Shown: one piece after another, positions 927-48,856 of the stretch
How positions within the stretch are numbered: the stretch's first letter is position 1
How the letters are laid out: each line of letters opens with the position of its first letter
Assembly (NCBI RefSeq): GCF_029227915.1
Contig: NC_079876.1
Coordinates: forward strand, 32,593,828-32,657,827
Length of the DNA: 64,000 nucleotides
Direction of reading: 5' to 3'
Source: Hydractinia symbiolongicarpus
Lineage: Eukaryota > Cnidaria > Hydrozoa > Anthoathecata > Hydractiniidae
The notes under the pieces: model-generated
Databases searched by the model: none
What the model was told of the DNA's origin: nothing
Seen by the model: the letters and a program-made list of their open reading frames with translations, nothing else
Made by a program: the position numbers and the translations under genes

Positions 927-3713
927 TTGAATCCTGATCTTGCTCTACCATTAATTGGCACAGTCATGTGTAAGGTGGATTACAAACCGAAAGGAAAGAC
1001 AGATTTGACATATCAAATTGGTGATGAAATCAATATTATTAACGTTCCAAACGAATCATGTCCAAATGGTAAAATGTTGGTACAACATTGTGGTACAGGA
1101 AGAAGTAAGCCATTTTTTTTATACATTCATCTATATTGTGGTACAGGAAGAAGTAAGGCATTTTTTTGATACATTCATCTACATTGTGGTACAGGAAGAA
1201 GTAAGCCATTTTTTTGATACATTCATCTACATTGTGGTACAGGAAGAAGTAAGCCATTTTTTTATACTTTCATCTACATTGTGGTACAGGAAGAATTAAG
1301 CCATTTTTTTTGATACATTCATCTACATTGTGGTACAGGAAGAAGTAAGCCATTTTTTTATATATTCATCTATATTGTGGTACAGGAAGAAGTAAGCCAT
1401 TTTTTTATACATTCATCTACATTGTGGTACAGGAAGAAGTAAGCCATTTTTTTATACATTCATCTATATTGTGGTACAGGAAGAAGTAAGCCATTTTTTT
1501 ATACATTCATCTATGTTGTGGTACAGGAAGAAGTAAGCCCTTTTTTATATATTCATCTATTTTTTTTTATGGTCTGTGACCTCTTAGTTATGCAGTTCTC
1601 TTTGTAATCACGTGGTCCGTTGTTTGACTCACAGTATGGGCATGTTTGCAAGTGTCGTTACCACAACTACGGGTAAACCCATACCATGGAGGGTAATTGG
1701 GTAGGCGTAGCCGGTGTATACTTAATGTATACATTCAGAACACAGGACCCACATTGCAGTTGTTATATCCTGTATAAATATTCGAAATGGTTATAATATT
1801 TTTTCAGTAGCAATTTTTTTATTTCTTCCTATCTATTTTCTCTTTCTCTCGACAGACCTTTATAACTACGAACGTTATGACTTTCATAACATCGTGGACA
1901 GCATTATAATTTTAACTGAATGCAATTTACGGTTGAGTTCTTACCATTAATTTCCTTATACTCATTTTGATATCAAACTTCATAAAACCTGATTTAAATC
2001 CCACTGGATGATAAACGTGCAGATTGCAACCACTGTTCAATTTTATATTTTCTTGTATTCTTTAGTCGGCTATGTTTTACGTCAAGATTTTGGAATGGAA
2101 CTTGTAAGTATTCTTTATATTCTTTTTCTTCTCGTTGACGTACTTGTAAAGAGTGTCGATCAAAAGGTACAATTTTATAAGAAGTTCACTTTTTGTAAAA
2201 TATTTCTAACCTTTTTTTATTTTTTCTACACAGCCACCTGAGGATCATAGATCGCGCAGTGTGAGGTAATTATTTTGTATATATTTTTTTTAATGTTGAA
2301 ATAGTGACAACATTACCCCATAATGCTCTCTTTTTGCATTCGGATTTACAAATTTTTTTCCCTCTAGTAAACCCGTTTTTTGAGCATGGTTCGAAAAAAT
2401 AATCGTTCCTCCCCAATAGTCTGACACGTGGCATTACTATACCTGCTCACCTACATTCTTTAAAATTTCAGTCTTGCAGTAGCGTGAGTAGGCTCCTGCA
2501 ACAAATTGATGACGATATGATTGTTGACACCGTCAAACATATCATTCATACTAGAATATGAAGTAAAAGTTGTAAAATCAATGATATGGAACAGATTTGT
2601 GCTAAACCTGTGGTGTTATGCTTTTTTATGATCAATTTTTTTACCTGTTTAAAAACGTTCTGCGTTTTCTTCGTCGTCGAAAAAAATACTAATTTAAAAA
2701 GCAGCCAGCCGGCTGCAGAGTAGTGGTCCCAATTCAACCTTTTATCCGTGTTTAAAAAAGGACTTCGCTTCAATAATTTTGTCCATGATAGATTTATTTT
2801 TGTATTTGTAACAACGTATTTCTTTACCGGGTAAAATTTTGTGTCCAAAATTATTATTTAAAGTTGTTGTTGTTGTCTCGAAAGAAAAAAACGATTTAAA
2901 ATAAAGAGAAAATCATGCTCATATACATGTGGTAACTTTGTTGCAAGAAGAATTATTTTGAATATAATCTTTTTTTAGTCTCATTCCAACGGAAGACGAT
3001 TTGGAAGAAGTTCAAGAAACATATGAAGAAATCAACGTTCATCAAGCACCCCCTGTTCCTGAAACACCACGCCCTCATTTACGCCCGGAAGGTATTTCTA
3101 TATATACGTTACGTTAATCTTACTTGTACCACAACTTATTGCATGCAAATTAGCAAGCACGAGAATGTTTTGAAACGTAAAACGCACATTTACATTCTGT
3201 CTAAAACGCTAGGATTGTACAATTTTTATTTATATTTGTGGATACTTAAACATGCGAAAATTTTTACGCGTGATGTTGCTATGATGGAAGTATATTACAA
3301 GCTACATTTCCATCGTATTGTGTTTGAACAATTTTCTACTGCGTGGTCATGATTGGTCGCCATAGCAATTTCTAAAAGTGCGATTATTCGCTATAGAAAA
3401 AGCCGGTCTGTAAATTGTCAGTCTGTAATTTTTAATTTCTTTTTAGCACCTATTGAGGAAGACATGTATAACGATATTGCAGATGAACGTATGTTGATTT
3501 CTTTATATTTTTTTTTTTTATGAATTTAATTTATTTACACATTTTGGTGATTAGTTGCAACGTGAAATATAGGTTTAAAAACAGTGCCACCAATCCAAGA
3601 TCATGTGAAGATTTATTCTTAGTGTAAAACAAGCTTAACTACACGTAACCGATTTTGTGAACACGTTTAATTTCTTTTCTATAGCGGCGGAAGATATTTA
3701 TGAAGAAATTTAA
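927..3713 (+). CDS. FYB/ADAP-like adaptor: variant SH3 domain plus tyrosine motifs (5' partial)
   Basis: Six exons can be joined with conserved reading phase: 927-1104, 2066-2103, 2234-2265, 2979-3091, 3447-3488 and 3685-3713 (stop TAA). All have AG acceptors and GT donors. The first two exons make an SH3 fold: VDYKP near the start, then a GDEI turn, CPNGKMLV, and CGTGR joined to GYVLRQDFGMEL. This resembles the helically extended SH3 of FYB/ADAP-type adaptors, which scaffold kinase signalling at the membrane. The last three exons are acidic and contain ETYEEI, DMYNDI and a C-terminal DIYEEI. YEEI is the classical ligand of Src-family SH2 domains. The true start is outside the window. The SH3 assignment is firm; the FYB link is inference from this short SH3 plus the tyrosine tail. 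Confidence 0.75.
1086..1560 (+). repeat. Ten-copy 47-49 bp minisatellite containing a splice donor
   Basis: Units begin at 1086, 1135, 1183, 1231, 1278, 1327, 1374, 1421, 1468 and 1515. Each consists of the last roughly 18 bases of the SH3 exon (ATTGTGGTACAGGAAGAA), the donor GTAAGCC, a T-tract and a short ATACATTCATCTA spacer. The fifth copy has lost its donor (GAATTAAG) and the others keep it. Only use of the first donor at 1105 keeps the SH3 frame into the exon at 2066. Use of the second would add 49 bases and shift the frame. Confidence 0.95.
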
Positions 3714-6180
3714 ACGGATTGTGCTGGATGTGAGAAGCCATCTTGGAATGCTTCGAGTCGGGTAGAAAACATATTGTCGATACTAGAAAAAAAAAACGTC
3801 TCGGAATTCATTGTCGGTCTAGCAGACCATTTAGTAGATTTATTTTCTACACAATTTTTGTGAATTATTTAAACACTTCCTACGTGTATATTATATATGA
3901 TATTTTAAAGGGAAGAAATTATAGTGGGAAATTTTGCGGAAAATGGCGAAATTTAATTTGGCGGATCCAATTGGGGAAAATTAGTGTTTTTAAAATGGAT
4001 TGGAGAGGGAAAGTTGATTAGATCCATCACAAGCCCACACAAATACGAAATGAACAGATGATATCTGCGCCTGTTGAAGAATATGGCTTGCATTTGCAAG
4101 GCGTCTTCTCAATCATATTTAAATCAAGCAGAATTAGCAAAAAGTAATTATTTTTATTATCAAAAATTTGATATTGTTGTCTTCTTTTGAAACAATGTGT
4201 AGCCTATGCTGCAAAAATATCTTAACTTTAAAATTGACACGGTTTACTTAAAACGCTCAAGGTTTTTTGTAGACGTTTCTACAATTTTTACCAGTATATG
4301 CACATAGTAAACCTCCTGCTACCAGCCAGTGTTTTGCGACCGGGTGGACTGCCTAATGCACTGATCATGCATGCATTTGCATCAGTTTTAATACGATCAA
4401 TTTTTTCCGTTCATGAAATTTTATTTTTTTTATTTTACATAGATTATATTTTTGTATTTGTAACAACATATTTGCATATCGGGTAAAATTTTGTGTCCGT
4501 GTTTACATGAATTTAAATTCACTTCGCATTTACAAATTGTACATATTATATTATTTTTTATTATAAAGTAGATTATTCAGTGCGGAAGAGAAAAATCTTG
4601 AATGGCTGACGAGACATACTATTTCGTCAAAATTTAAGGTTCTCCTCCTCCTTCGCCTTTCAGCCATAATTATATATGTCACCTACCATTTGTGTTGGCC
4701 AAACATTTTTGTAGTGAGAGAGTACACATATCTTTTTCATCTCTCCAAAAAATAGTAAGTAACTTTAGTATAAAAATTACATAATATGACATAAAAACAT
4801 CAATTTAATTTTTTAAGATGTGTGTTAAAACAACACATTGTCAAGCCTATTTTTATTTTCGGTAGAAATTAATTTATTTACACCTTTTGATGTAATGTGA
4901 AATATAGGTTTAAAAACCAATCCAAGGTGACAGCTTCTCCTGCCTGATTTTTACACGTGTAATTTAGGGATTTTGATAATCTTTGAAGTTGTTTGCCTTT
5001 CTGTTAAGCAACCCTTAAGCAAACAACTTTTTCTCTCGAATTCAAAACATTCTTTAGCAACTCAAGTACTATGTCAAAAGTTCAGTTGGTTATAACAAAA
5101 GACACTAATAAATACTACGTGTACTAGCAGGATAGACATATAATTGGACGGGATGGTATATTGGTACACTAACTTTAGAACTCTACGTTCCTGGTTCTTC
5201 TTACATCTCAATAAAAAAATTGTCATTTTATTTCAACTTGTTTCGTCGGCCATTACTATGGAAATCTCTAAATCTATTTGTTTTCAATATCTTGGAGATA
5301 GATAGTATGCGAACAGGAGATAATATATATATATTATGTATATATATTATATAATATCTTACGTGAAAAACGTTCGCTCGTAAACAATTTTTTGTGAGAT
5401 TAGGCGTATTCGTATGTGGAAATATAGTACGATTTTGTACAATAAAGAATTTATTTTTCGAACGCACTCTTGTATATGTAATAAAAATGTTAGATTTTAG
5501 TTTTATATTATCACTTTGTACATAAAACAATTTCTGAACAACGCTCTATATTTGAGTTTTATTTTATACTGATTTATTTGTCGTCCTCGGGTGCTTCATA
5601 CAATAGAAGGCTCTTCCAAACGTTTTACGAAGTGATAGGTAAAATAGAACACTAACCAACAAATCCCCAACGAGATAGCAGCCGCCTTTCTTAAATTATT
5701 AGGAAGCCCTTGCATTAAGCTTGTGGGGCAGTATACATCAATATTTTCTAAAATAAGACACGATTTTTTTTTACCTGAAATTCCCTACCTGTCGGAGGTT
5801 AATAACCACGAAAACATCTTTTCACGAATTTGTGACGCTAAGTATTTTCACGACTCAGCCATATTCGTAAATTTAATAAGCATCGCTCCATAATTTCGTA
5901 ACATGCGTAACATGATTTTTAAAATGCAAGCATAATATGTTGAAATTTAATTTTGTAATTCGGTTGATTCTTTTGTGAGACCGGGCAAAATCATGTCGAA
6001 AAATAAAAAGTTGAAATTAATTGATTTATGCCGAAAGATGTGAAGTTCGAAGAATCACTATTACACCAAGGACGCTAAAGAAAAAATCAGACAAAATTTC
6101 CCTATTATTCAGTCAAGTTGCCCTAAAGTACCACTGCCGTCCCCAGGATTAGTTAGCCTTTGAGCGGAGCGACAGCTGTC
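3714..6180. other. Intergenic DNA with degraded copies of SH3-gene intron sequence
   Basis: No supported gene. The stretch near 4440-4500 (TTTTTGTATTTGTAACAACATAT, then CGGGTAAAATTTTGTGTCC) repeats intron sequence at about 2790-2850. The stretch at about 4864-4925 (TTAATTTATTTACACNTTTTG, then GTGAAATATAGGTTTAAAAAC) repeats intron sequence at about 3523-3590. The order is preserved, but no exon copies are visible between them. A palindromic AT tract of TATATA/ATATAT lies at about 5320-5360. Confidence 0.5.
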
Positions 6181-27120: not shown

Positions 27121-28266
27121 TTACGATTTTTGACAATGAACCCGCCTGTACATTCGTTGAAGGTGAGAGCTCATGTTTAGATGGCTATCCATGATTACAC
27201 CAAGATATTCGTAGAACGCAGGCTGGTGGATTTCATTGTTATTGATTGTTATATTGATCTGGGTGTTACGTGATCGAGATGTATATGTTACAAATTCTGT
27301 TTTTCCTTTTTTTGGGTTTAGGATAAGACAGTTATCTTGCATCCATCTGAACACTTTTTCAGCATCTGAGTTTATACATTTTTCGATCTCAGTTAGCGAT
27401 TTGTGTGAAAAATAAATCACTGTGTCATCAGCATACATTAATACGTTGCAGTAATTTAGCTGGATCGGAAGGTCGTTTATAAGAAGGACAAATAGCAGAG
27501 GTCCCAATATCGAACCTTGGGGTACACCATGGGTAACAAACTCCTTCTCAGAAAGTACTCCATCAACGTTAACGATTTGGCTTCGGTGAAACAAGTAGCT
27601 AGATATCCAATCAACCTCTTTACCAAGTATTCCATAGTAAGGAAGTTTGTAAAGTAAACAACTGTGGTTAACAGTGTCAAATGCTTTTCTCAGGTCCATA
27701 AACAGGGCATCTGTTACTTTGCCTTTGTCCATGTTTTCGCGGATGTTATTTGTAAGTTTGGTAACTGCATCACTAGTCGATCGTTTCCGGCGGAAGCCAT
27801 ACTGGTGTTTGCTCAGGAAGAAGTTTTCTTCCAGGTAGTCAGCTAGTTGGTTATAAACGACTTTTTCGATGGTCTTCGACAGAATGTTGAGCACAGAGAT
27901 CGGACGGTAATTATCAATATTACTGCGATCTCCATTTTTAAACACAGGGTTAATTTTTGCAGTTTTCTCTGATGTTGGAAAGGTGCCAGATAACAAGCTT
28001 GCATTTATTAAGAACGTAAGTGGTGCTGCAATTACGGGAGCAATATCCTTTACAATTCTTGCAGGTGATGTGTCCGGACCTGCCGCTTTCGATGCATTTG
28101 TCGATTCTAAGATTTTTAATGTTTCTCGGACTGTTAATTCTTTAAACTTAAATGTTGCATTAGTTCGGTTTATATCCTTCAGGGGGTCCCGATGGTCAAA
28201 CATTTTCCATGTGTAATTAATGATTTTACAGTTCATTAATTTGGATCCGACTTTCGTAAAAAACAA
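27121..28266 (-). pseudogene. LINE reverse transcriptase segment
   Basis: This encodes the RT core: YRPISVLNILSKTIEKV, QYGFRRKRSTSDAV, LFMDLRKAFDTVNH (motif A), GVPQGSILGPLLFVLLINDLP (motif B) and LMYADDTVIYF (motif C, catalytic YADD). All catalytic aspartates are present. It continues in the same frame from the upstream piece across one TAA near 28294, and it leaves frame after YLGVIMDSHLNMSSHLQRMYR. A functional element would continue for about 150 more residues, of which only the last about 60 survive at 27029-26841. Confidence 0.85.
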
Positions 28267-32180: not shown

Positions 32181-33307
32181 TTACCTAACCTCTTCAAGGA
32201 AAAGGATGTAAGGTTGTACACCATTAAGCAAGCTTTGTTTGCAAGGGACCACTGCTCTGTCGTTGCAATGAAACCACTTACCATGCACTTGGTTATAAGC
32301 AACAGTAGTGTAATGGCCATTGTTCAAATTTCCGGAGTGGTTAATTACAGCCCTTAAGTTGTAGTGCTTGCGACAAGAGACGTCACTGTCTACAGTGAAA
32401 GGTCTAGAAACGGTGCCCGGGTAAGATGTGACAGGAGAACAAACCTTAGACACAAGACCTTTGTTATAGGCAAAGCGCTTTAATTGCAGAACCAAAATTG
32501 AACTGCACTTTGCGACCTCTTTTTCAACTGTTGCAGTTTGGTAACTAGTGCAGTAGTGACAGAAGTGCGAGTTGACACCTGACAATTCTTCGCTCTCCAA
32601 AATGTTATCTATTGAAGATTGTACTTCGTGTACTTAAAGCTAGTGGTCGAAGTTGCTTGTGACTTGGATTATTTCTTTGAAACAGTAGGTATCAATTAAG
32701 CGGTATGCTGTGGATCCCTACCAGGATGAATCCAAGACAAAGAATCTCGAGATAGCCAGATGTAAAACGACGATCGCATCAATGACTCAGTAAGAGATTT
32801 CAGAGTGGAACGCACAGACATGTTAGAAAAGCCGAGGCGACGGAGGCAGATTCTAACTGTTTCGGAACAAAATCCTCTACTTTAACAGCAAAGAAATGCA
32901 CAGACCAATTGTTTAATCTCATGACGGAACAAAGTGACGAGTATTTATCAACCTTAACTCCATGCCAAGTCTCCATGTTCTCTTTGCATGGGCAAGTTAA
33001 TTCAAGGATAATTACAGTTTTGGTCATGGCAAAAGTTAAAAGTATGTCCGGAAGAAGTTGCGTTACAGTAAGATAAGGTGGTACTATTAAGGTTGAACCT
33101 AAGTCTAATAACAATAATTTCCAATCAGGGGCCAGGTGAAGGATACCTTGAATTTTTGAACGCCTTTTGGTGGGAAGACGTTTACCAGCTGGAACAAAGG
33201 ATATTTTATGACATCTAGATGGTTTTGCTGGATCATAATCAGATAAGAACTTCTGAATGGCTGTGACTAACACACGTAGAACAGTGTCGTGGCGGTACGT
33301 GAAAAAG
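32181..33307 (-). pseudogene. R2-type retrotransposon copy B: endonuclease plus half a USP
   Basis: The minus strand encodes the restriction-like endonuclease (33307-32700: RHDTVL, AIQKFLSDYDPA, LLPDILLTF, VIILELTCPCKEN, KYSSLCSVMR, SSFYIWLSRDSLSWIHP). It ends at a stop near the same place where copy A reads WVEPEK. It then encodes the C-terminal half of a ubiquitin-specific protease (32640-32181: SSIDNILESEELSG, CHYCTSYQ, LVLQLKRFAYN, LNNGHYTTVAYNQ, WFHCNDRAVV). The USP half with the catalytic Cys is deleted, so the protease is dead. The RT part is missing; repeat S2 abuts the broken 5' end. Confidence 0.8.
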
Positions 33308-33435
33308 AAAATAATTTACAAAGAGGTGGCAAGCTACCACAATGATGAACTCAACCTGTTAGGTCTTTGGAAATAAGCTAGAGGTTGTACTCCTCTAGAG
33401 AAAATGCCTCTAAAAGCACAATTCTCCCTTTTTAC
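33308..33435 (+). repeat. Short hairpin repeat, copy S2
   Basis: Over 90% identical by eye to S3 (38577-38710). It includes AGAGG-TTGTACT-CCTCT at 33380-33396, a stem-loop of T-arm size. It is fused to the endonuclease fragment of copy B at RHDTVL, as S1 is for fragment D. Confidence 0.65.
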
Positions 33436-33666
33436 AAAAATATAAAAAATAAAAAGGACACAACACATATGAAAAGATGAACAGAACTTTAACCAAGGGC
33501 AGGTAGGTTTCGACCCATATTTTTGAACCTAAGTACCCTGGATGTCTAGCTGGGTCACCTCGAACAGGTCCGCGGACGGTCATCCGCAGAAAGTAGACAT
33601 CCCTACTAGACATTCCTAAAGTAAACTTTGACCACTTTCTGTTCAACTGTGCTATTCTTTGTTTTT

Positions 33667-33915
33667 AACTCAGGTAATAAGTGGAGTCGTTACTCTCCAA
33701 AGCCAAGATCATGTGTGATCAACCCCCCCTGCTAATATTTTTTTGACGGGGGTAATAAGTGGAGTCGTCACTCTCCAAAGACAAGACCTAGTATGATCAA
33801 ACCCCCTTGCTAACTTAATTTTTATTTGATTTTGTTTTATTTTTGACTGGGGTAATAAGTGGAGTCGTCACTCTCCAAAGACAAGACTGAGTGTAGTCAA
33901 GCCACCTTGCTGACT
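33667..33915 (-). repeat. Three tandem hairpin modules in the 3' UTR of copy A
   Basis: Modules at about 33667-33734, 33743-33813 and 33843-33915, immediately downstream (minus strand) of the USP stop. They have the same consensus as in copy B: GCAAGGGGGTTTGA, GTCTTGTCTTTGGAGAG, TGACGACTCC, ACTTATTACCCC, with A-rich linkers. The outer GGGGT/ACCCC pairing and the GGAG/CTCC hairpin are kept in all six copies apart from isolated changes. Confidence 0.85.
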
Positions 33916-33943
33916 CATTCCGGTTAAAATATTCTTATCTCAG

Positions 33944-34915
33944 CTATCCTAAAAAGAAAACATATGACTCGTGACTGTTAATAAGGCGGTCATCACAGAA
34001 AATTACTGCTCTATCGTTGCAATGTATCCACCTGTGTACCATTTGGTCGAAGGCTATGGTTGTGTAGTGACCATTATTTAAGCTGCCGCAATGGTTGATA
34101 ATAGCCCTTAATTGAAAATTTTTACGAAATTTCACTTCTCCATCTACGGTTAAAGGTATGGAAAGGGTACCAGGGCAAGCAGTAATACGAGAGGCAATTT
34201 TTGACAATAGGCCGTTGGCACTGGCAAAACGTTTTAACTGTAAAATGAGATGGAAATCGCACGACACTACCTCTTTTTCAACTAAAGCAGTTTGATGAGC
34301 GTTGCAAACATGGCAGAAGTAGGCATTGGTGTCTGACAACTCCTCGCTTTCGAAGAAATTATCTAAAGAAGATTGTAACGTAGGTGCTATAACTTCTGAG
34401 GAGCTGGTAATATGACATGAATTGCAAGTGGTTGATATCTTGATGTCAATACTAAAAAGACTTCCAAGAAATGGAAAGTCTAATGACAGACCAGGTAGGA
34501 GATATTCAAGAACCTCGGGGACGTCGTGCTGAGCAAAGATATTAAATGCACTTCCTTTCGCAGCTGAGATATGATGTTTCATAGCACGCAAAGAATGGGA
34601 GGGATCAACTGGACTTCTAGAAACAGCCAAACTTTGAAGAACACCTACAAATGCTTCGCCTAACTTTGAGGTTGTTTTGCTGACAGAAATGGCTTCTTTA
34701 ACTTTTGGAAGGTTATAAAAACATTGTAAGATGGAGTTTGCATAACATGTGTTTCCTAAGTTTTTTAGACCGCTATTCCTAAAATCAGGGTTAGATGGCA
34801 ATGCGACTGTTGTTTTGGAAGACCTTGTAGCAAGTTTTTCGGGTTTTTTGATTTTACAAAATTTGGTGTGATTTGCAGAAGATTTCTCAGGGGTTTTTGA
34901 TTTCTCACAATCCAT
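33944..34915 (-). CDS. Ubiquitin-specific protease (peptidase C19) encoded by the retrotransposon
   Basis: An intact 323-codon ORF from the ATG at 34915; the frame is open to 34930. The USP core is complete. The Cys box SGLKNLGNTCYANSILQCF has its nucleophile at about residue 57. The QHDVPEVLEYLLPGL box follows, then two zinc-knuckle CxxC pairs (CNSCH, CHVCN), LILQLKRF, the His box LNNGHYTTIAF (His about 283) and WIHCNDRAV (Asn/Asp about 300-301). USPs remove ubiquitin from proteins. The ORF overlaps the end of the RT-endonuclease ORF by about 150 bp in another frame, and the 3' hairpin modules follow it. Copy B has the same order, so the USP is part of the element, not a chance neighbour. 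A TGA lies just upstream in frame, so it is either separately initiated or reached by frameshifting. Confidence 0.85.
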   Translation of the reverse strand: MDCEKSKTPEKSSANHTKFCKIKKPEKLATRSSKTTVALPSNPDFRNSGLKNLGNTCYANSILQCFYNLPKVKEAISVSKTTSKLGEAFVGVLQSLAVSRSPVDPSHSLRAMKHHISAAKGSAFNIFAQHDVPEVLEYLLPGLSLDFPFLGSLFSIDIKISTTCNSCHITSSSEVIAPTLQSSLDNFFESEELSDTNAYFCHVCNAHQTALVEKEVVSCDFHLILQLKRFASANGLLSKIASRITACPGTLSIPLTVDGEVKFRKNFQLRAIINHCGSLNNGHYTTIAFDQMVHRWIHCNDRAVIFCDDRLINSHESYVFFLG

Positions 34916-37900
34916 ATTTGTAACAGACAAACTTCAGGAATGATTTGGGCCTTTTCAGGCTCAACCCAAGTGGTAGAATTTCGAGACATCCAGATGTAAA
35001 AAGAAGCACTCATGGAGGTAAAAGTTAGGGACTTTAATAGGCAACGTAAAGGCTTGTTAGGGAAACCAAGGCGACGAAAACAGGTCCTTACTGATTCTGA
35101 ACAGAAACCCCTTGCGCCCACCTCAATTGCAAAGAAATGCACGATCCATCCATTGTTTTTCATAGCATAACAAAGTGAAGAATATTTGCTAAGCTTTCGT
35201 TTGTGCCAATATTCCGTGTTCTCTTCACATGGACAAGTCAGTTCTAACATAATTACAGTTTTGGAAGAACTGGATATTAATAACACGTCTGGGCGTAGTT
35301 GTGTTATTGCAATGTATGGTGGAACAACTAAAACAGAATCTAAATCTGACAGTATTTTCCAATCGGAAGCAAGGTGAAGAAGGCCTGGACACTTTGTATG
35401 CCTCTTCTTAGATGGTGATTGACCGGCCGGAATGAAATTAATTTTGTTGCACTTGGAAACCTTAAGAGGTTCATATGATGCCAAAAACTCTTTTAATGCC
35501 TTAACCAAAACTATTAAAACCGAGTCATGACGGTATGTGTATCTACCCTGCGTAAGGGAGGTCCTACAGGCACCCAATATGTGAGAGACATTTGAGGATG
35601 GTTTCTTGCACAGAATGCAACTTTTGTCTTTCTCAATTCCCCATCTCACAAGATTGGTTGGAGAGGGAAGGGTGTCGTAGGTTGCCCCTATACAAAAGGA
35701 AGTTTTCGTCCAACTGCCTTGCAAATGCAACTGTACAGCTCTGGTATGGTAAATATCTTCTTCATTTTCTTCAATGATATTGGAAACAAGCTTTCGGTAA
35801 GCATAAGTGCCTTTTGGTGGTATATTTTTGTGGTCTAAGAGCCCTAAGCCAGCTCGACCAGTCTGATGCAAACCTAAAATCCTTTTGAAATTGAGCTAAC
35901 TATCCGCCGAAAGAACTGCCTCACTAACTTTCCAATTTCCAGCTTTCAAATCTGGTACACACTTAGACACACAAGGGTCGACAGAATCTCTTAGTAACAG
36001 ATGTCCACTGATTTTGGCAGATTTGAGCACAGATGCAAGACTTTTTAGGGGAAGAGGACAAGGCGATGTCGAGGAATATAAGGAAATGTTGGAAATTGAA
36101 TGATGTAGTTTTAACCATTTCTTAATGAAAACAGAAAATCTTTGCTCTAGTTTTGTGATAGTAGATAGAGAAACTTCATAAATTAATAATGGCCAGCGGA
36201 TTCTGGGAATTAACAGATGGTGTAAAAACCAAACCTTATGGACCCCTTTATGAAAGGACTTGTCTATAGCCATAAGTTTGTCTTCGGCATCATTTAGAAA
36301 TTCTTGTATTGCAGCAGAATCAGACAAAGATGAGTTTATTGTTCTGCCTAAAAACTTAATTGGATTAGAATGAATGGATGGAATTTTTTCGCTGCCAACT
36401 GTAAACGGTGAACTTTGGACGACTTTCCCCTTATCAATAACAATGCTGCGTGATTTAGAAGGCCTAAACGACATGCCTACCCAATCCAGAGCTGTTGTAC
36501 ACCTGTTTAATAAATTTTGAGTACTTGGAATTGACGTGGACATTAAAAACATATCATCCATAAAAGCTTTTATTGGGGGTTGGTCTGGGATTTTGTTTTT
36601 ATTACCTTCAGTATCAATAAGGCTGGGGGTAACACACATATACTAATAATAATAACGTTTATAGCTGCAAGAAATAGTATAATGGAAAGTGTACAGCCGA
36701 TAAAAATTCTCCTACAGTGTTGAAGGAGCAGAAGCCGAAAAGGATTTACTCCACAGGCTGTCGTAGTATAGCTGTATGAGCCTTATCCATGATTCTGGTA
36801 CAACATAGCGTCTGAGAGCCATAAAAATCAGCTTGTGCGGAACTGAAGGGTATGCATTAGCAATATCAAGCCATATGGCTGGAAGTGAAGAATGTTGTGC
36901 CTTCGCATTCTTAAGTGTGGACCAAACAATAGACATGTGTTCCCAGCAACCCGGAACTTTTTCCATACAATCTTTTTGAATGGAAGTATTAATGAAGTTG
37001 TTTTTCTTTATAATATGCGATTCTAACCGCTTGGAAATCAAACTAAAAAAGAGCTTTCCTTCAACATTCAGAAGAGCTATGGGGCGAAAATCCTTTATGT
37101 TGGATGGACAAGGTGTGTTGTTTTTAGGTATATAAACTTCTGATGCAATTCTCCATTGCACGGGAATAAAAGACTTCTTTAGACAAGCTTGAAAAATGTT
37201 AAACAGAAACAATGCAATATGAGGACAATTCTTATATACTGTGTAAGGAATTTGGTTCAGCCCAGGAGAAGAAGCATTTCTACGAGAATGTAGGACAGCT
37301 TGGAAATCCTTGAACTTTAGCTTGGAAGAATCGAAAGCTGAGACTAGATTTGGTGGTGAAGGCAATCCAGGGAGATCTGAAAGAGGTATATGGCGTGAGG
37401 GGTCGTTCAAGGTTAAATGTTTGTGTGAATCCATTTCGTCCTGGGCAACTTCAAGTTTTATTGAACATTTGGGATCTAAAATATTTTTTCCAGCCTGATA
37501 AGGATTCTTAGAGAAAGCCCGGCGTGCATTCGAGATTTTCCAACGTCTTTTCCTATTCCGCTCACCTCTTCGAAGTAACCTTAACTTGGTCATTATATCA
37601 TCTAAAAGGTTTTGCATATTGCTTTTCTCAACTGGGTCAGATGTGTTCTTAAAAGTTCGGAGTAGATTGTTCTTCTCGTTCACCAAACTGATGCTGCGTA
37701 AAGCTCTCCTGTTCAAACCTGATAGGTTGTGCTGAGGAAGTGACCTTACACCAAACAGGTGAGACGCATGGTAGTAAATTGTTGATTCCAACAGCTCAAC
37801 TTTTTTTGACAATGGGTAAGAGCCTAGAAGATTGTGGAAAACTGCAACATCAAGGGAATTCCACAATTTTGTGTCAATTGACTTCGGCCAAGCAATAGGT

Positions 37901-38151
37901 TGTTTCCATTTCATAGTGCTAAGATGGTCAGGTTCTGTTGATTGCTGAGAAAGAACACTATGGGAGTTATCTGGGTTAGCTTTCAGCAGCCGAGACTTTT
38001 CAGTGGAATCAACAGCTAGCACATCTTGCAAAACAACTTTACACGGTTTTAATGTCCAATGCTTAGTGGAAGAGAGTAACGAAGAATCACAGGTAGCAGG
38101 AAGGACAGAGGAGTTAGTAATAACGAAATCGATATCCGGAGGGGTAGCCAA
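34765..38151 (-). pseudogene. R2-superfamily retrotransposon copy A: reverse transcriptase plus restriction-like endonuclease
   Basis: Pieces on the minus strand: 38151-36712 (N-terminal region and RT to motif A, WLDIANAYPSVPH), about 36725-36640 (motif B, GCTLSIILFLAAIN, in another frame), 36639-35899 (motif C AFMDDMFLMS and the thumb NRCTTALDW, KSRSIVIDKGK), a TAG at 35898-35896, then 35895-34765 in the same frame. The last part has a Cys-His knuckle (CILCKK..HILGAC, RYTYRHDSVL) and the restriction-like endonuclease RPDVLLI, VIMLELTCPCEEN, KLSKYSSL. That order is diagnostic of R2-superfamily non-LTR elements. Two frameshifts flank motif B and one stop precedes the knuckle; otherwise the frames are long. 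No N-terminal DNA-binding fingers are seen, so the 5' end is probably truncated. Confidence 0.85.
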
Positions 38152-40105: not shown

Positions 40106-40107
40106 TA

Positions 40108-40311
40108 CAATCCCGGTCAAAAATAATGGCAGTAAACCCTTTTTTCATGTGTAGCAAGAGCTTGATAAGTACAAAGCCCCCTTTCTCCCAGTATCAATGT
40201 TCAAAAGTTGTGCTAACGCGTTTCCAAACATTGATAATGGGGGAGAGGGGGTAAGAAAGGATTTTACTGCACTTTTTGTAGCTTACTACCAATATATTTT
40301 GACCGGGATTG
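40108..40311. repeat. Left 204-bp terminal repeat (itself MITE-like)
   Basis: Starts CAATCCCGGTCAAAAATAAT and ends ATATTTTGACCGGGATTG, about 18-bp inverted ends. It has a TA on its outer side only. It is a direct copy of 43980-44183 with about ten substitutions and no length change. Confidence 0.85.
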
Positions 40312-40898
40312 TCTCTGAAATTTTAGACTTAGAATTTTTTCGGCAATTTTTTGCAGTAATTTTTTTGACTTAATTTTTAAATTAATTCTAAAGGTGGATA
40401 CTATATATATGTTTTGAAGTATGTACCAGCATTGTTTCTTTTGTGCCATGCTAAAATTGGAAACAATAGAAATGCTAAAACAATAGATGACGAGGCGAAT
40501 GGGGCATTTTTCGATAATCGCGAGACATTATAATATTCCGTGAAAAATTGTAGTTAGATGAATACGTTATTGTTACTAATTTTTGTGGGTATTAATTTTG
40601 ACGCAGTTGTGCGAAAAAAAATTATTTGCGCGCAAAATTTAGTACAGAAGCAACGCGCAAAATGTTTTGGGTGAAAAGTACTACGCGCAAAAAATATATA
40701 TATACCTTTTCAAGAATGAAAGGGTACATGTATATTGAGTCAAAAATTCAGAAAATTAGTACCAATAAGGTAGTGCTAAGCTCTGTAAGGGAAGATCGAA
40801 CTGAAAAAGGACCTTGTTTATGTTTGTTTTGCATGTACATAACTGCCAACAGAAACAATGATAACAACAACATGTATATTTTCGTCTTTCTAGAAAGA

Positions 40899-40908
40899 TA
40901 TATATAAA
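40899..40908 (+). promoter_or_regulatory. TATA box of the Tc1 transposase
   Basis: TATATATAAA, 24 bp before the ATG at 40932. Confidence 0.5.
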
Positions 40909-40931
40909 CATAAAACCAGCGCAAAATCAAA

Positions 40932-41958
40932 ATGTCTCCAAAAAACAGTCGGGGTAAGTATCAAAAAATGGACCTACAAACTTCCATGAAGTTGAGGATA
41001 TTGCATCAGGAGAACGGTCTGAGTTGTTATGAGCTTGTCAAGCGTTGTGGAAAACAGTTTGCAAAGCGGACCATTTACAGGCATGCAAAAAAACCTATGG
41101 ATGCCGCTGCCCCGTTTAATCCACGGAAAGAAAACCAAGGTCGTCCTCGAAAGTTGTCTATCCGTATGGAACGAATTATTGTCAGGACTGTGGCACAATT
41201 GCGACGGAATGGGGTACAGTTCTCCTCGAAGAAAGTTCAAGAGACAGCAGGACTCGGCTGGAAGATAAGTAACAAAGACATACGACGTTGTTTGCAGAAA
41301 CATGGTTACAAGTATTGTCAATCAAGGAAAAAAGGACTTTTGAGCGTGAAAGACAAATCCATTTGCACGAAGTTTGCTAGGCAACAGTTAAATCTCCCGG
41401 CCGAGTACTGGACTAAGGAGATTGGGTTTTATTTGGATGGGATTGGATTTGCATTTAAGCCCAACCCGGCTTTTGGTCGCAATTAGTTTTGGTAATGGGG
41501 TTGTCATCTGTCATCATCATGACTGGAAAATCACTGGCCACAATTTTGCCAGGTATGTTATTGATGAACAATTCCCCTCTGCCTTCGCGAAGAGCGAGTC
41601 TGCGCTACCGTACAAGTTTCTTCAGGATGGATGTCCTAAACAAAATTCAAAATCAGCGAGGGTGGCCTTGGAGCGCAAAGGTTATGTCATGGTCAAAATA
41701 CTGGCACGCTTCCCGGATCTAAACCCAATAGAAAATTTTTTCCACCTGGTTAGGACAAAATTAAAAGAAGACGCAATGAAACAGAACATCACAGCAGAAA
41801 CATATGAACAGTTTGTGAACAGAATCAAGCAAACCATGTTGACAGGTATTCGAAAACAAACTATTGACAACCTGATATCATCAATGCCAAAAAGCTTGGC
41901 ACTTGTGCAAAAGCACAAAGGTGCCAGAACAAAATATCAAGTTTTTAAAGATATTTAG
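40932..41958 (+). pseudogene. Tc1/mariner (IS630-type) transposase with an internal deletion
   Basis: The first ORF (40932-41486) has paired helix-turn-helix domains (LSCYELVKRCGKQFAKRTIYRH, a GRPRKLS hook, then VQFSSKKVQE). It begins the catalytic core with FYLDGIGFAFKPNPA, which supplies the first Asp. The second frame (from about 41465 to 41958) continues with LLVAISFGNGVVICHHHDW, FLQDGCPKQNSK (second Asp) and RFPDLNPIENFFHLV (Glu of the DxE triad). About 30-40 residues expected between KPNP and LLVAI are gone and the frame changes there, so the enzyme is broken. The ATG is preceded by a TATA box. This enzyme would recognise the element's TIRs. Confidence 0.85.
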
Positions 41959-41970
41959 CTGTAAATTCTA

Positions 41971-42178
41971 TGCGTCACAGTGCGTCACTAATGCTTCACT
42001 CGGTTTTTTGCATGCGTTTAACTGTTAAATGTATGCGTCACATGCGTCACAACATTTTTTTTAAAGATATATATACTATTCTTTTAAAACTTTGGATGTG
42101 ACGCATGTGACGCAATAAATTCTTTTAGAGCATAGTACTATATAGCTTGTGACGCATATGTGACGCACTTGTGACGCA
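41971..42178. repeat. Inverted array of TGCGTCAC / GTGACGCA octamers
   Basis: Four TGCGTCAC at 41971, 41981, 42034 and 42043, and five GTGACGCA at 42098, 42107, 42149, 42160 and 42171. There is also a one-mismatch copy TGCTTCAC at 41992. The inner pairs (42034-42050 and 42098-42114) form an inverted repeat of about 17 bp around a 47-bp AT-rich core with TATATATAC. The array lies exactly between the convergent transposase and Rep genes. The layout resembles Rep-binding iterons around an unwinding region. It could also serve as a bidirectional 3' end. Confidence 0.9.
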
Positions 42179-42229
42179 TGGAATATAATAACTTTTAAAT
42201 ACGAACATAGTTTTTATATATTATACATT

Positions 42230-43599
42230 TTACGCATCCATGCCTTGGATAACCAGGGTGCAAAAACAGTGCGGACAAGGTTCTAAGTCTTTCATCGATT
42301 CCTTTGGGATTTCTTCAATGAATTTGAGTTCTCGCCACCTTGAACTCATCATATCTGTTTCGCGTTGGTCTCTCTGGTTATATTTTCCAACATGTTCAAT
42401 TGAACCTTTGGTTGTAGCCAAAATTGGCATGGAATTGTCCCTGCCTATAACCATGTCAGTGGCAACTGGTTTTTAGGCCTTGGCAGGTGAACAGTCTGAC
42501 CTTCCAACAGGAGGAGAAATTCGTTCCATGCGATTAATTCCGCTGACCACCTAAAATCATTAAGGTAGGCGAGTTCACATTCATCGAGGCCAACCCATGC
42601 GTACTTGCTGCTTGCAGGATTAACAAAACAATTGAAAATTAGTTCTACAGGGTTCAACAAGAATGATTTTCCACAATTTGTTGGTCCTGTTAACAGGATA
42701 TTGTTATTTTTCTTGCGACCACGCTTCAGACATTCTCGCAGAGCATCAGCAAAAACGTATATATTGATGCTATTGTTTCTCAACACTTGCCTTGCACACA
42801 CCAACCAAGTGCCGTTGCATCCGTCTACGCAGGCTGTGTTTGATTTTTCTACCACAACGTCAAGTCTACATTTTTGCTGTCGCTCGATCGCTTTAGGGGC
42901 ACTGTGCATTTTCCAAGTTACAGAAATGAGTTCTGAGAGTGCCTTTGAAGACTTATTTAAGATAAAATTGAATAAGTCTGGCTGATTCTCAGCTTGTCTC
43001 CGGTTTGCCACTGACATGAGCTGAGTGTCATTTTTTATGTCGTTTTCAACAAAAAACTTGGCAACATCACTATTAGATAAGCGTCGTTTAGCTGAAGCTT
43101 CCGGTTTTTGTACTGGACCCTCCAAACACCGGCGTTTCTTTGAATTTTGGGAAAAACGAGTGAAACCCCGCTTTGATACTGGTGATTTGGCATTCTTTAA
43201 GTTTGGGTGATTTTTGCTGTGCAAAACTGACTCAAACGGTTTATCTTTGCAAACATAACGGTATGCAGCCAAGTACCCATAGTTTTTGGATGAGAAGTTC
43301 ACAGAAATCTTACGTGTCTTGTAAATGTGCTGATGAATGGGGCGCCAACGACGGGTTCCACTCAGTTTCAATGCCATGTGGTAGTGTTGATGCTCACCAT
43401 ATGCATGAACCTCTGTACAAGTAGCCCAGTGTTCGACATTAGCCTTAGGCGTCCCTATGGAAAATGCCTCTAATACGATGTCAGTGAACGTCTTTTGATT
43501 TGGAACAACACTTAGATCTGCTTTGGAGTACGTTAACATATACGTTCTGCAACTGTCTTTGTTGTCAAGCTCCTCATCGCTATTTATATTGTTTGCCAT
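42230..43599 (-). pseudogene. Rep-like protein: HUH endonuclease plus SF3 helicase, one frameshift
   Basis: The main ORF (43599-42445, 384 residues) has an HUH nickase domain: a first strand near CRTYMLTYS, the metal site HYHM at about residues 72-75, and a tyrosine motif YLAAYRYVCK at about 109-118. A superfamily 3 helicase follows, with Walker A GPTNCGKS at about 305-312 and Walker B-like WVGLDECELAY. The frame breaks near 42465, within the helicase, by one base. The remaining C-terminal coding (42454-42230, ending in a CPHC motif) continues in the neighbouring frame. Proteins with this pair of domains start rolling-circle or rolling-hairpin replication of small DNA viruses and plasmids. 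Here it sits inside a DNA transposon, convergent with its transposase. The exact family is not assigned. Confidence 0.8.
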
Positions 43600-43611
43600 T
43601 CTATATTAGGT

Positions 43612-43825
43612 TTTATACTTTATTTTATACGTTATTTTAGGTTAGGATGAGAGCTTATTTCTTGTGTTGAATATCATTTGATTTCACTTTCGTTTTCTTC
43701 GAATTTTGGCGCCTAATTTTTATACTTTATTTTATACGTTATTTTAGGCTAAGATGAGAGCTTATTTCTTGTGTTGAATATCATTTGATTTCACTTTCGT
43801 TTTCTTCGAATTTTGGCGCCTAATT
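43612..43825 (-). promoter_or_regulatory. 107-bp tandem duplication with E2F-like sites upstream of Rep
   Basis: Two copies, period 107, of a segment running from TTTATACTTTATTTTATACG to GGCGCCTAATTTT. Each contains TTTTGGCGCC (43704-43713 and 43811-43820), a match to the E2F half-site TTTSSCGC. They lie 105-220 bp before the Rep start on the minus strand. S-phase control of a replication gene would make sense but is inference. Confidence 0.55.
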
Positions 43826-43979
43826 TTGCTTATCATTTCACTAGATTCGTTACAGAATAGTAGTCTCATAGAAACTAGGGTCAAGTCCACGTGTAAATTC
43901 GAGTTACAGAGGCCTTTTTGACTTTCTCTAGGAAGAAAAAAGCCACAACTCTTGTCAAATTTTTTTCTTGAAATTCAGA

Positions 43980-44183
43980 CAATCCCGCTCAAAAATAATG
44001 GCAGTAAACCTTTTTTTCATGTGTAGCAAGAGCTTGATAAGTACAAAGCCCCCTTTCCCCCAGTATCAATGTTCAAAAGTTGTGCTAACGCGTTTCCAAA
44101 CATTGATAATAGAGGAGAGGGGGTAAGAAAGGATTAAACTGTACTTTTTGTAGCTTACTGCCAATATATTTTGACCGGGATTG
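43980..44183. repeat. Right 204-bp terminal repeat
   Basis: Direct copy of 40108-40311. Starts CAATCCCGCTCAAAA (one change in the TIR) and ends TTTTGACCGGGATTG, followed by TA. Confidence 0.85.
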
Positions 44184-44501
44184 TAGCTGTGATAATATTT
44201 CTTTTCTAATGACAGCTGGTTCTACTATAGTTAGAGTTTGCAACGTTTTTTAAAAAAAGCAAAATCCCCTTCTTTGCAAGCATTTCCTAAAAGGATTGAC
44301 CGAAAATATAAAAGCGACAGAACACAACACAGCACAATAAATATTAAAGCAATTCAAAATGAATTGAATAGGTACAAATGAGATAAATAAAACTTATCAT
44401 AACGTGAATATCCTTAAACGAATAAATTCAAAATTATTCCATATTCATAAAAAAAGATAGTCTAGCTCCGTGGGCCGTTTCCTTTGTTTAGAAATTCGTA
44501 G

Positions 44502-46003: not shown

Positions 46004-46529
46004 CCGGACATGGACTATAATAACGGTCAAAAAGGCTATTTTTATAGCCAAACATTTTAAAAACACATTATTTTGGATATATGCCTACTACTTGCATACA
46101 TTCATTGTTCGGTAAGTTGAATAATTTTCAGGCTGAACGAGAAAAATAAATTTTGCAAACTTATATTACATTCATGGAAAAAATGTTTGCCGGACGAAAA
46201 TTTTGTGGTTTTAAAAATCTGCAAAATTTTTGCATTTTTGAGAGAAATTTATCAAAATATGTCAACAACAACAACAAAAATACCTAATACATACCTATAT
46301 ATCTAGGCGATAAGACATTATACCATACATATTCTCCCGGTTCCACAGTATAAAGGAAACCGGGTCTGTGAATAATTTCCAACAAGGTGTGCAATCATTC
46401 TCTAGTCCTTTTATATTGTTATATTGTTTTATATTATTAATTTATAATGCAGTATTTTATCATTTTAATGTTTTCAAAACATTTGTGGCTATAAAAATAG
46501 CCGGTTTGACAGTTTTTGTCCATGCCCGG
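46004..46529. mobile_element. MITE with CCGGRCATGGAC ends
   Basis: The left end CCGGACATGGAC.. AACGGTCAAAAAGGCTATTTTTATAGCC is mirrored by GGCTATAAAAATAGCCGG.. GTCCATGCCCGG at the right end (46482-46529). The inverted repeats are about 50 bp with gaps. GGCTATTTTTATAGCC is itself a palindrome at both ends. No transposase, and no convincing target duplication was found. Confidence 0.65.
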
Positions 46530-46581: not shown

Positions 46582-48856
46582 TCATGAATCAAGTTGAATC
46601 TGTCTTGCCCACGTACATTTCCAGAAATCGGTCTCACTGAATACTGTTTTTATTGTGTTGTCATTGTAACCGACATCTCTGACTGTTGGATTATCACGTC
46701 TTCGACCAATAGCACGTTGTCGACGAAAGTAATTTTCAAGATCATCTTCGCAAAATCTTTCTGAATGCACGTAGCTGTAAAAAAATAAAAAAAAAATAGA
46801 ATTAATCATTATATGCTGTTGAACTCAGGCTGCCTATTTTGATAAAAATAAGTTCACAAAAAGTTGCAAAGTATCAAATTTTTGTAAATCTTTTAAGACT
46901 TTTTTCCATCAAAACTTTCTCTCAATGTACGCAAAAAATATCCAATCTGTATTCACATACATACCTGATTCATGTTGTAGTAAAAACTTCACTACTTCAA
47001 TGAATGAATACACTGTTATCCGTAGACCTTCATATGTTTGCCACGAGATGAACATATTACATTTGGCTTGATCCGAAAAATTACCAGGTATGGTCTCGAT
47101 AGACTCCTTCCATTGCTTAAAGTACGACAAAAAACTTTCCAACCAAGCAAATCTCTCATCATCTACCGATTCATATGGTCGTAAAAATGGTTTTCGTTTC
47201 AATGCATGCTCTGTTGTATTTTTAACATTTAAACAATCAAAGAATTTATCCATTTTCAAACAAAATTCTGCAGTGCCAGATGCTTCAGCTGGACCAAATT
47301 GGTTCAAAACATTTCCAACAGTTTCACTCAATACTTGGGCTGTAAGTCGGACTCTCATGACAGAATATGGTGTAAGGTTGACATAATCACTTTTCAATTT
47401 TGGGACCAACTTCAAACCACTTTCCAAATCTTCATAATACAAATTTGAAATGTGTGACCAAAGAATAAAACATCCATTATTCCACATGAATCTTGTTGCT
47501 CTACCTGAACCAGAATTTGAAAGACAGCTTCTAGTTGTTCTGATAAGATGTGGAATGTCTGCAAAAAAGTAAATGAAACGTTCCTCCTTGCTAAAAACAT
47601 TTTTTGTACGATAAACGACATCTTTTCCGGTGTTTCTAGTTAAATTCTTGTGCATTCTAAAAAATTTACGGTTATATGAAACACCCTCAACAATAGCAGC
47701 AATGACTTTCAAATTTATACCTTTAAGGTAACATACAGCTCTCCAAAATATTGGCATTATTTGGGCAGATGTTGCTCCAGTTGTTGCAAATGTACATAAA
47801 CTATAAGACAATTGGTTGACAATACTTTTAACAAGAAATACCAATACATGAGATGCAAGTTCTTGAACATTTTGTAAGGTAGCAAAGTTAGTATGTATAT
47901 CCCTAGGTCAACAAAACCTATAAGTTCACCGGTATGTTTATCCCACACTAAATCTTCCTGGATCTTCATTTCATCAAATAAAAGTAAAACATATCCCTCA
48001 GGATCAGTAAAATTACCAGTTTTTTGTGCTAACTCTTGAATTATAGCAGAATTGAAACCACGTGTTGGTCTAATGTAATTCTTATAATCTCGAAGTGTAA
48101 GTAAACTTGGTAGAACTTAAATCCCAGAGCCAGTTTTCGCATCATATCGCAGGTCATTATAAACAGAAGATGACTTTGCAGCTAAGTTGAGACAATATTT
48201 TATTACCATGGGATGATAACGAACACTACTAGCACACGAGGAATTAACATAATTTTGTTGTTTCTCCCAAAACAATTTCATAAAATCAGGAACATCTTTT
48301 TTGTACACCAGAAAATAATGTTATGAAGTCATTATTTAATTCATTACTAATTGGCTGACTTTCTTTTTCCAATGCACTTTTCATTCTAGCCAAATCTTGT
48401 TCCAACTGCTTACAATGCAATCGCTGTCCTTGAATATACAATTTCAAACGTTGATTTGAGGTGTGTTTGTGATTTGAGCATTTAGTTTGGCAGGTTGGTT
48501 TGAAACAACAGATTTTCGGTTTTTGTCATAAATTATATTCATATTGAATGACTCACAGTTACCACATGGATTGCTAAGATTTACCAAAATGTTACAATTG
48601 TTGGAACGTTAATACTGATCCTGATGCAACCTTGATTTGAATAAGGATTTCTGATAATTGTTATAATCAAAATGTTTTGGGACAACATGTTTCTGAAAGT
48701 TTACTTCTTTGTCAGGATCTGGTGTTTCAATACCATGACATATGTTGTAACTATTCAGCTCAGCAATAAGGTTTGACAGGGTGACATTATGAAATGACCG
48801 GTCATTCGATAAATAAAATTGATGCTGTTCAGGTAACATCCAACCATAAACTCTTC
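46582..48856 (-). pseudogene. THAP9 / P-element-like transposase, C-terminal three-quarters
   Basis: This continues a gene that starts at 58470 and is separated from it by an 8.9-kb insertion. From RVYGWMLPEQHQFYLSND at the breakpoint it runs through the coiled-coil region (QRLHCKQLEQDLARMKSAL), FMKLFWEKQQ, SVRYHPMVIKYCLNLAAK, DLVWDKHTGELIGFVDLG, FATTGATSAQ, FFADIPHLIRTTRSCLSN, RFMWNNGCFILWSHI, KFFDCLNV and RFAWLESF. An intron (about 46960-46775) precedes the last exon: SERFCEDDLENYFRRQRA. Defects include a TAA at about 48117, frameshifts near 48300 and 47907, and the insertion. P-like transposases use a RNase H fold with an inserted GTP-binding domain. Confidence 0.8.

Follow-up and report, generated by a model that had tools for sequence, protein, structure and literature searches.

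The stretch considered here (the window) comprises 64,000 nucleotides of the genome of the hydrozoan Hydractinia symbiolongicarpus (contig NC_079876.1, positions 32,593,828 to 32,657,827 of the forward strand). It contains, at positions 40108-44183, a 4076-bp element running from CAATCCCGGTCAAAA to TTTTGACCGGGATTG that carries both a transposase of the Tc1 kind and a replication initiator (Rep) combining an HUH endonuclease with a superfamily 3 helicase (HUH-SF3). An initial annotation, made from the letters of the window, had described a single unit between TAs, with a Tc1 transposase and an HUH-SF3 Rep converging on an iteron-like array; its coordinates proved exact, and domain matches agree with both gene assignments. 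The transposase lies on the + strand and the Rep on the - strand, the two genes converging on a central iteron palindrome. TA is found on both sides of the element (40106-40107 and 44184-44185), and the outer flanks, ACAGC-TA and TA-GCTGT, make up a palindromic target. The features are as follows.

40106..40107, no strand: left-edge TA, flank ACAGC-TA
40108..40311, + strand: left terminal unit, 204 bp, bounded on both sides by the terminal inverted repeat (TIR) CAATCCCGGTCAAAA; inner flank TCTCTGAA
40932..41486, + strand: N-terminal part of the Tc1-type transposase (helix-turn-helix and start of the catalytic domain), by domain match and alignment
41422..41958, + strand: C-terminal part of the Tc1-type transposase in a different frame, with a gap of ~106 bp at about 41471
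41962..42187, no strand: iteron palindrome, TGTGACGCA in both orientations flanking an AT-rich loop, between the 3' ends of the two genes
42230..42454, - strand: C-terminal tail of the Rep in a different frame (tblastn row, residues 390-468, C2:32636060-32636296)
42445..43599, - strand: HUH-SF3 Rep, 384 codons open, by domain match, alignment and the fold of the relative P0003
43611..43827, - strand: 107-bp tandem duplication upstream of the Rep, by repeat detection and copy comparison
43980..44183, + strand: right terminal unit, oriented as the left unit; inner flank AATTCAGA
44184..44185, no strand: right-edge TA, flank TA-GCTGT

The two 204-bp terminal units are direct repeats with nine mismatches between them, and each bears the TIR at both of its ends, the copy that opens the right unit differing by a single base; DNA folding gives a long hairpin for the left unit (z -8.65). 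On their outer sides the units adjoin TA, and on their inner sides TCTCTGAA and AATTCAGA. Judging from this unit boundary, with inner sides that are not TA, the TA at the edges would represent a target duplication. The 107-bp duplication upstream of the Rep is shared with the copies L018 and L019 and is found in none of the other copies read across the site.

The N-terminal part of the transposase matches HTH_Tnp_Tc3_2 (8e-9, passing its cut-off) and the C-terminal part matches DDE_3 (0.007, failing its cut-off), and the family profile matches Sleeping Beauty SB100X at 4.8e-19 and Tc3 at 0.0087. The catalytic residues are kept among the aligned relatives (D in 125/127, D in 120/121 and E in 117/120), and the second D and the E are separated by 34 residues in P0124 (D, D34E). 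With a DDE transposase of the Tc1 kind, and with TIRs and a presumably duplicated TA at both ends, the element falls within Tc1/mariner. Some 106 bp are missing from the window transposase at 41471, as they are from the duplicate L009; they are present in the ten other copies read there (L010-L019). One genome copy has a + strand frame of 371 codons, which would suit a transposase, judged by size alone. One relative is named from Clytia hemisphaerica, and a search of PHROGs with P0124 returned a single weak match, to a family of unknown function.

The Rep has an HUH motif visible in the alignment, a catalytic tyrosine and an SF3 helicase, which place it among the HUH-SF3 Reps; its PPV_E1_C match in 42445-43599 (2.9e-6) barely passes the cut-off. 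Among the aligned relatives within the 120 matches listed, HxH is kept in 114/114, the tyrosine in 117/119, a lysine in 117/119 and the Walker-A lysine in 118/120. Placement of the Rep is by fold only, with the relative P0003: the folds nearest to the helicase part are those of parvovirus Rep/NS1 and papillomavirus E1, and that nearest to the HUH domain is geminivirus Rep. The octocoral Paramuricea clavata is the named source of one relative. No relative was found in prokaryote genome contigs scanned with alignment A1 or in plasmid and phage records scanned with P0003, and P0003 had no match in PHROGs. The Rep of the window changes frame, its tail at 42230-42454 lying off the main frame, and elsewhere in the genome one copy shows a near-full-length Rep match with no inside stop. 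Neither gene of the window copy is intact.

Between the two genes, 8 of the 9 exact occurrences of TGTGACGCA in the window fall within 41971-42178, compared with a mean of 0.24 expected in the whole window. The array is at the same time one large palindrome, 41962-42187, and DNA folding of 41955-42200 gives z values of -10.9 and -10.7 for the two strands. Among copies the palindrome varies by gain or loss of whole iterons of 9-11 bp. We regard it as the putative origin for the Rep. A candidate nonanucleotide of circular Rep-encoding single-stranded (CRESS) DNA viruses, TAGTATATA, in the loop on the - strand, agrees in 7 of 9 letters with TAGTATTAC, which we take to be the CRESS motif; most gene-less copies differ there, and the candidate was rejected.

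A search of the genome (480.9 Mb, 76 contigs) gave at least 130 match rows to the element, and 40 of 141 candidates were scored. Further copies with both transposase and Rep, which the initial annotation had pointed to as a check, do exist: among the stretches fetched, nine full-length copies have both ends, and these represent seven independent insertions, all at TA and each with both genes, with L001/L009 and L014/L015, which share flanks, each counted once. TA is present on both sides in all 15 copies with unshared flanks and two readable ends (7 full-length and 8 gene-poor); a preceding C and a following G are invariant in all of them, and the preferred target is AGC-TA-GCT. Left out of the 15 were the duplicates L009, L015, L026 and L028, the second copy in L024, and the copies with an end lacking or unread (L016-L018, L020-L022, L029, L033-L036 and L038-L046). 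The inner flanks of the units are constant among the copies read, with one variant (L038).

Rep matches came to 98 rows, of which a part had their neighbourhoods read. Every one of the 12 Rep-bearing loci tested first holds a transposase match, three of these loci belonging to other families. In a later test of 12 loci (L018 repeated), both genes were found at L009, L015, L017 and L018. Of the remainder, L020 and L021 are truncated, with the right end only and a Rep without transposase; L022 is truncated, with a piece of transposase and no Rep; L029 and L018 are two halves of one split copy; L036 lacks the genes apart from a Rep tail; L045 and L046 are the outer stretches adjoining L017 and L016, respectively; and L044 has neither gene. 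The arrangement that the initial annotation had set against its own proposal, a Rep occurring alone with its own ends, was thus not encountered at these loci, L020-L022 being truncated pieces without ends of their own. Two further observations concern individual copies. L019 and the C3 copy L018/L029 are each split by foreign sequence, at element positions 940 and 975, respectively, both within the same small region close to where the transposase gene begins. The copies at C2:32.63 Mb and 35.68 Mb, and those at C4:0.49 and 9.09 Mb, have flanks 99.8-100% identical over 600 bp on each side, and either duplicated segments or assembly duplication would account for them.

Shortened derivatives retain a characteristic part of the element. 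The 1.8-kb class L023-L028 keeps query positions 1-730, 1785-2381 and 3611-4076, that is, both ends and the palindrome and no whole gene; one of the two copies in L024 is without the first 153 bases. L031 and L037 have further or different deletions and keep the palindrome in part only, and L039-L043 keep query 13/24-518 without recognisable right ends, with 1885-2040 kept in four of the five. We would argue that a transposon relying on its TIRs alone has no reason to retain its centre.

The pairing of the two genes is old and recurs on public contigs. We compared the lengths of public contigs bearing Rep matches (120 listed of 241) with those bearing transposase matches (120 listed of 1201), and among these listed matches exact agreement was found for 18 lengths (in 19 rows, as two Reps share one length); equal length does not prove a shared contig, and about two chance matches are expected. 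Random shifts of up to 60 bases in the transposase lengths gave on average 1.96 coincidences, with a maximum of 10 in 20,000 draws, and 60 other fixed offsets gave 0-6. Two of the 18, at 2094 and 4093, are doubtful, in that the source labels of the paired matches do not overlap, and a length of 2094 cannot fit both genes side by side. Of the coincident lengths, 14 of 18 (the doubtful 4093 included) lie at 3.9-5.3 kb, close to the length of the element. Rep and transposase distances are correlated across the 18 pairs (r 0.43, a value reached in 28 of 20,000 permutations); without the two doubtful pairs, a post hoc choice, r is 0.57 (8 of 20,000), and when the alternative Rep of the shared length is then used it is 0.43 (45 of 20,000). 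The pair persists at Rep identities of 39-68% between paired contigs. We conclude that the Tc1-type transposase and the HUH-SF3 Rep are one standing, recurring pair across contigs and in several families of this genome.

Pure cut-and-paste transposition should give left and right terminal units that form two lineages, and the copies show otherwise. In the 13 independent copies in which both units are complete (L031 and L037 were dropped because theirs are truncated), mean identity between the left and right units of one copy is 0.982 versus 0.964 across copies, with 0 of 100,000 permutations as high, a pooled signal that is partly due to the split into full-length and gene-less classes. Coupling also appears when the classes are taken separately, with 12 of 5040 permutations as high for the 7 full-length copies and 24 of 720 for the 6 gene-less ones, and the two units of a copy are closer to each other than to those across copies in 5/7, 5/6 and, when pooled, 12/13 copies. 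Of 14 minor variants present in at least two units, 11 occur on both ends of some copy and only 3 on single ends; no alignment column splits left from right across every copy. This coupling is a signature like that of long terminal repeat (LTR) elements, in which both ends are copied from one; gene conversion would give it as well.

Further Rep families emerged from a search with P0003. In one of them, 12 Reps follow one another on contig C15 at intervals of ~3978 bp (3883-4073), and 11 of the 12 matches are free of inside stops. Direct reading (L047, L048) covered the low edge of this array along with a complete period and the greater part of another, and also the final Rep and the high edge; the rest of the array is taken from the Rep spacing. 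Identity between the two periods is 99.97% (2875 bp compared), and that between the low and high edges 99.84% (3158 bp). A period is made up of a single 193-bp unit, the transposase and Rep genes, and an iteron palindrome whose iteron (GTCACC 6, GGTGAC 5) is not that of the window family. At the left edge, gaacTA-CAATCCC, the edge unit adjoins TA, as expected of insertion by a transposase, and the joint, ttttcaga-CAATCCC...GGGATTG-tctgagac, holds a single unit where it was read. Since the flanks of the internal unit closely resemble those found on the inner sides of the units in the window family (aattcaga / tctctgaa), the window copies resemble unit-core-unit segments excised from such an array. 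Regularly spaced Reps were also seen at C1:25565788-25604710 (~6.96 kb) and C7:4282129-4287249 (~3.8 kb). The C7 locus (L049) is a messy tandem duplication in which just one of the two Reps has a transposase match next to it, the C1 locus (L051) has no clean period, and both were rejected as support for concatemers.

We consider it somewhat probable that the element is a hybrid mobile element, in which the Rep multiplies an excisable replicon as a circle or concatemer with one unit per core, and the transposase inserts the product at TA. Let us suppose that the working form is a circle of the core and one terminal unit. The Rep would then bind and nick the central iteron palindrome and multiply the circle by rolling-circle replication, perhaps generating concatemers that present outward TIRs at every unit. 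The transposase might pair the outward TIRs of two successive units, excise unit-core-unit and insert it at TA, so that both ends of an insertion would be copied from one unit, as in LTR elements. Recombination between the direct units of a chromosomal copy could in turn restore the circle. Of the hybrid replicon suggested in the initial annotation, the pair within one mobile unit holds; the cycle of excision, circular replication and reintegration stays conjectural, and is backed by the coupled ends and the head-to-tail array. In a wider form, the proposal would be of a DNA transposon that behaves like an LTR element without RNA, with Rep-driven extrachromosomal multiplication, Tc1-type excision from a concatemer and identical fresh ends, forming a replicative class of Tc1/mariner, at least in cnidarians; on this wider form our own judgement is evenly divided.

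A number of points weigh against the proposal. We infer the circle, its junction, the rolling-circle steps and the activity of the Rep. The coupling of ends is a tendency, from which the window copy, L013 and L030 depart within their classes and only L013 in the pooled set, and gene conversion could couple ends. The array on C15 ends inside the core at its high edge, without a unit, and unequal crossing-over between direct units could build such arrays. The iterons, tested for stronger conservation on the copies, show no excess over other columns (0.943 versus 0.943 for neighbouring columns; 19 cores, two from L024), and the element contains no exact standard nonanucleotide NANTATTAC. Because most gene-less copies share one deletion, they represent few independent events of palindrome retention. 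Lastly, purifying selection among the genome copies was not clearly shown by a codon-position test in which all comparisons share one reference: changes at positions 1/2/3 number 97/57/86 in the Rep (p 0.0048, with fewer changes at the second position) and 42/29/40 (p 0.27) and 42/29/45 (p 0.15) in the two transposase parts. With no third-position excess, most copies look like decaying ones.

Several of these points are what one would expect if the Rep were a passenger on a plain cut-and-paste transposon, kept for some other reason or decaying, with gene conversion homogenising the ends and unequal crossing-over making the arrays. Both processes are common between close direct repeats, and the mostly neutral-looking decay of the genome copies and the ordinary conservation of the iterons fit such a passenger. 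We nevertheless hold it to be unlikely, considering that almost every aligned relative among the 120 listed retains the catalytic residues of the Rep, that the pair has persisted through the Rep divergence described above and that the palindrome is retained in copies without genes. One might also imagine the Rep acting on the chromosome, nicking the integrated copy and peeling off a single strand for insertion in a Helitron-like copy-and-paste manner with no free double-stranded circle. The helicase folds like that of Rep68 of adeno-associated virus, which is known to act on a chromosomal site; the putative nick site is, however, central rather than terminal, and TA-flanked ends with double TIRs fit cuts by a transposase, which makes this scenario improbable in our view.

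The fold of the Rep raises the question of an endogenous parvovirus-like virus with terminal units serving as hairpin telomeres and a transposase borrowed for integration. At least 33 of the 50 best viral fold matches listed, including the first three, are parvovirus-type NS1 or nonstructural proteins by name (counted by eye), and the left unit does fold as a long hairpin. Yet rolling-hairpin replication gives inverted termini, and the direct orientation of the units here argues against it and sets the element apart from Parvoviridae with their inverted hairpin ends. The iterons, moreover, are central; no capsid gene was noticed among open reading frames (ORFs) of at least 60 amino acids in one broken copy, with no domain search of the small ORFs; and no relative turned up in viral contigs, which were scanned four times using Rep or transposase queries (the window Rep, P0001 and the alignments A1 and A2). 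A viral origin of this kind therefore seems very improbable to us. Each terminal unit alone does resemble a miniature inverted-repeat transposable element (MITE) with two TIRs, and one could picture two unrelated nested insertions, or a Rep plasmid that happens to lie between two MITEs. The arrangement is repeated, however, in seven independent full-length copies and in other families, and no copy read at the inner sides of its units has TA there. Copy structure and the gene content of the tested loci led us to reject nesting, and we give chance assembly of this sort hardly any credence.

Cut-and-paste transposons are thought to gain copies only via host repair and replication timing. If the hybrid element that we propose is real, its own replication initiator, an origin-like palindrome and LTR-like ends would provide another route to copy gain. 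It would also show how a Rep replicon and a transposase fused into one genome, and would bear on the debate whether single-stranded DNA viruses and eukaryotic transposons interconvert. The element resembles Tc1/mariner transposons such as Sleeping Beauty and Tc3 in its transposase, D, D34E spacing and TA target, and differs from them by a second gene, direct terminal units with double TIRs and a central iteron palindrome. Full-text literature searches turned up no Tc1/mariner family with a Rep. Helitrons have no TIR, no target-site duplication (TSD) and a helicase that is not of SF3 type; with its TIRs at TA and SF3-type helicase the element is not a Helitron. To our knowledge, neither Helitrons nor Replitrons have a DDE transposase. 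In common with both, the element has an HUH endonuclease within a eukaryotic transposon; in the portion of the Replitron report that describes them (PMC10741241), Replitrons have short direct terminal repeats of 5-11 bp and Helitrons and Replitrons alike have no TIRs, unlike the present element with its SF3 helicase Rep, its TIRs at TA and its 204-bp terminal units.

The initial annotation knew of no described family with this pair, which is nearly right, there being one partial precedent. In Tuber melanosporum, a genome with 42 Rep genes or remnants, a repeat has been described that encodes a geminivirus-like Rep and contains two transposase ORFs, its TIRs measuring 37 bp and no TSD being obvious (Liu et al., 2011, PMC3198968), and this truffle element already hinted at such a pair. 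Like ours, it is repeated and TIR-bounded and joins a Rep-like ORF to transposase ORFs; going by its description there, TA flanks, direct terminal units and an iteron palindrome are particular to the element here, and the passage concerned gives no transposase type (PMC3198968). The same passage treats DENSOV_HM, a Repbase entry from Hydra, as an integrated virus-like element and mentions no transposase; compared by description alone, it is perhaps of the same Rep lineage (PMC3198968). For Teratorn, as outlined in part of a review (PMC10175614), a rolling-circle concatemer is proposed to supply one genome flanked by two transposon copies. There too a cut-and-paste transposase is joined to a replicating genome, with the same concatemer logic, but Teratorn is a 180-kb herpesvirus with piggyBac, in fish (PMC10175614). 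The pair is thus of a barely described kind, and what is new here is a many-membered family, a testable anatomy and evidence on the life cycle.

The window contains further features apart from this element. On the - strand, 32181-38151 encodes a reverse transcriptase of non-LTR type (RVT_1, 8.9e-9; a zf-RVT match is below its cut-off) with two ubiquitin C-terminal hydrolase domains downstream of it (UCH, 1.9e-29 and 1.8e-19), perhaps a retrotransposon with a deubiquitinase. A MITE-like inverted repeat at 46019-46517, with 52-nt arms (79% complementary) 395 bp apart, starts near TAATAACGGTCAAAAAGGC, and beside it a TNP-like GTP-binding insertion domain (1.5e-14) lies at 46909-47844 on the - strand. 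A second reverse transcriptase fragment is found at 27121-28266 on the - strand (RVT_1, 3.3e-37), and a 47-bp tandem array of 10 copies with 94% matches occupies 1085-1559.

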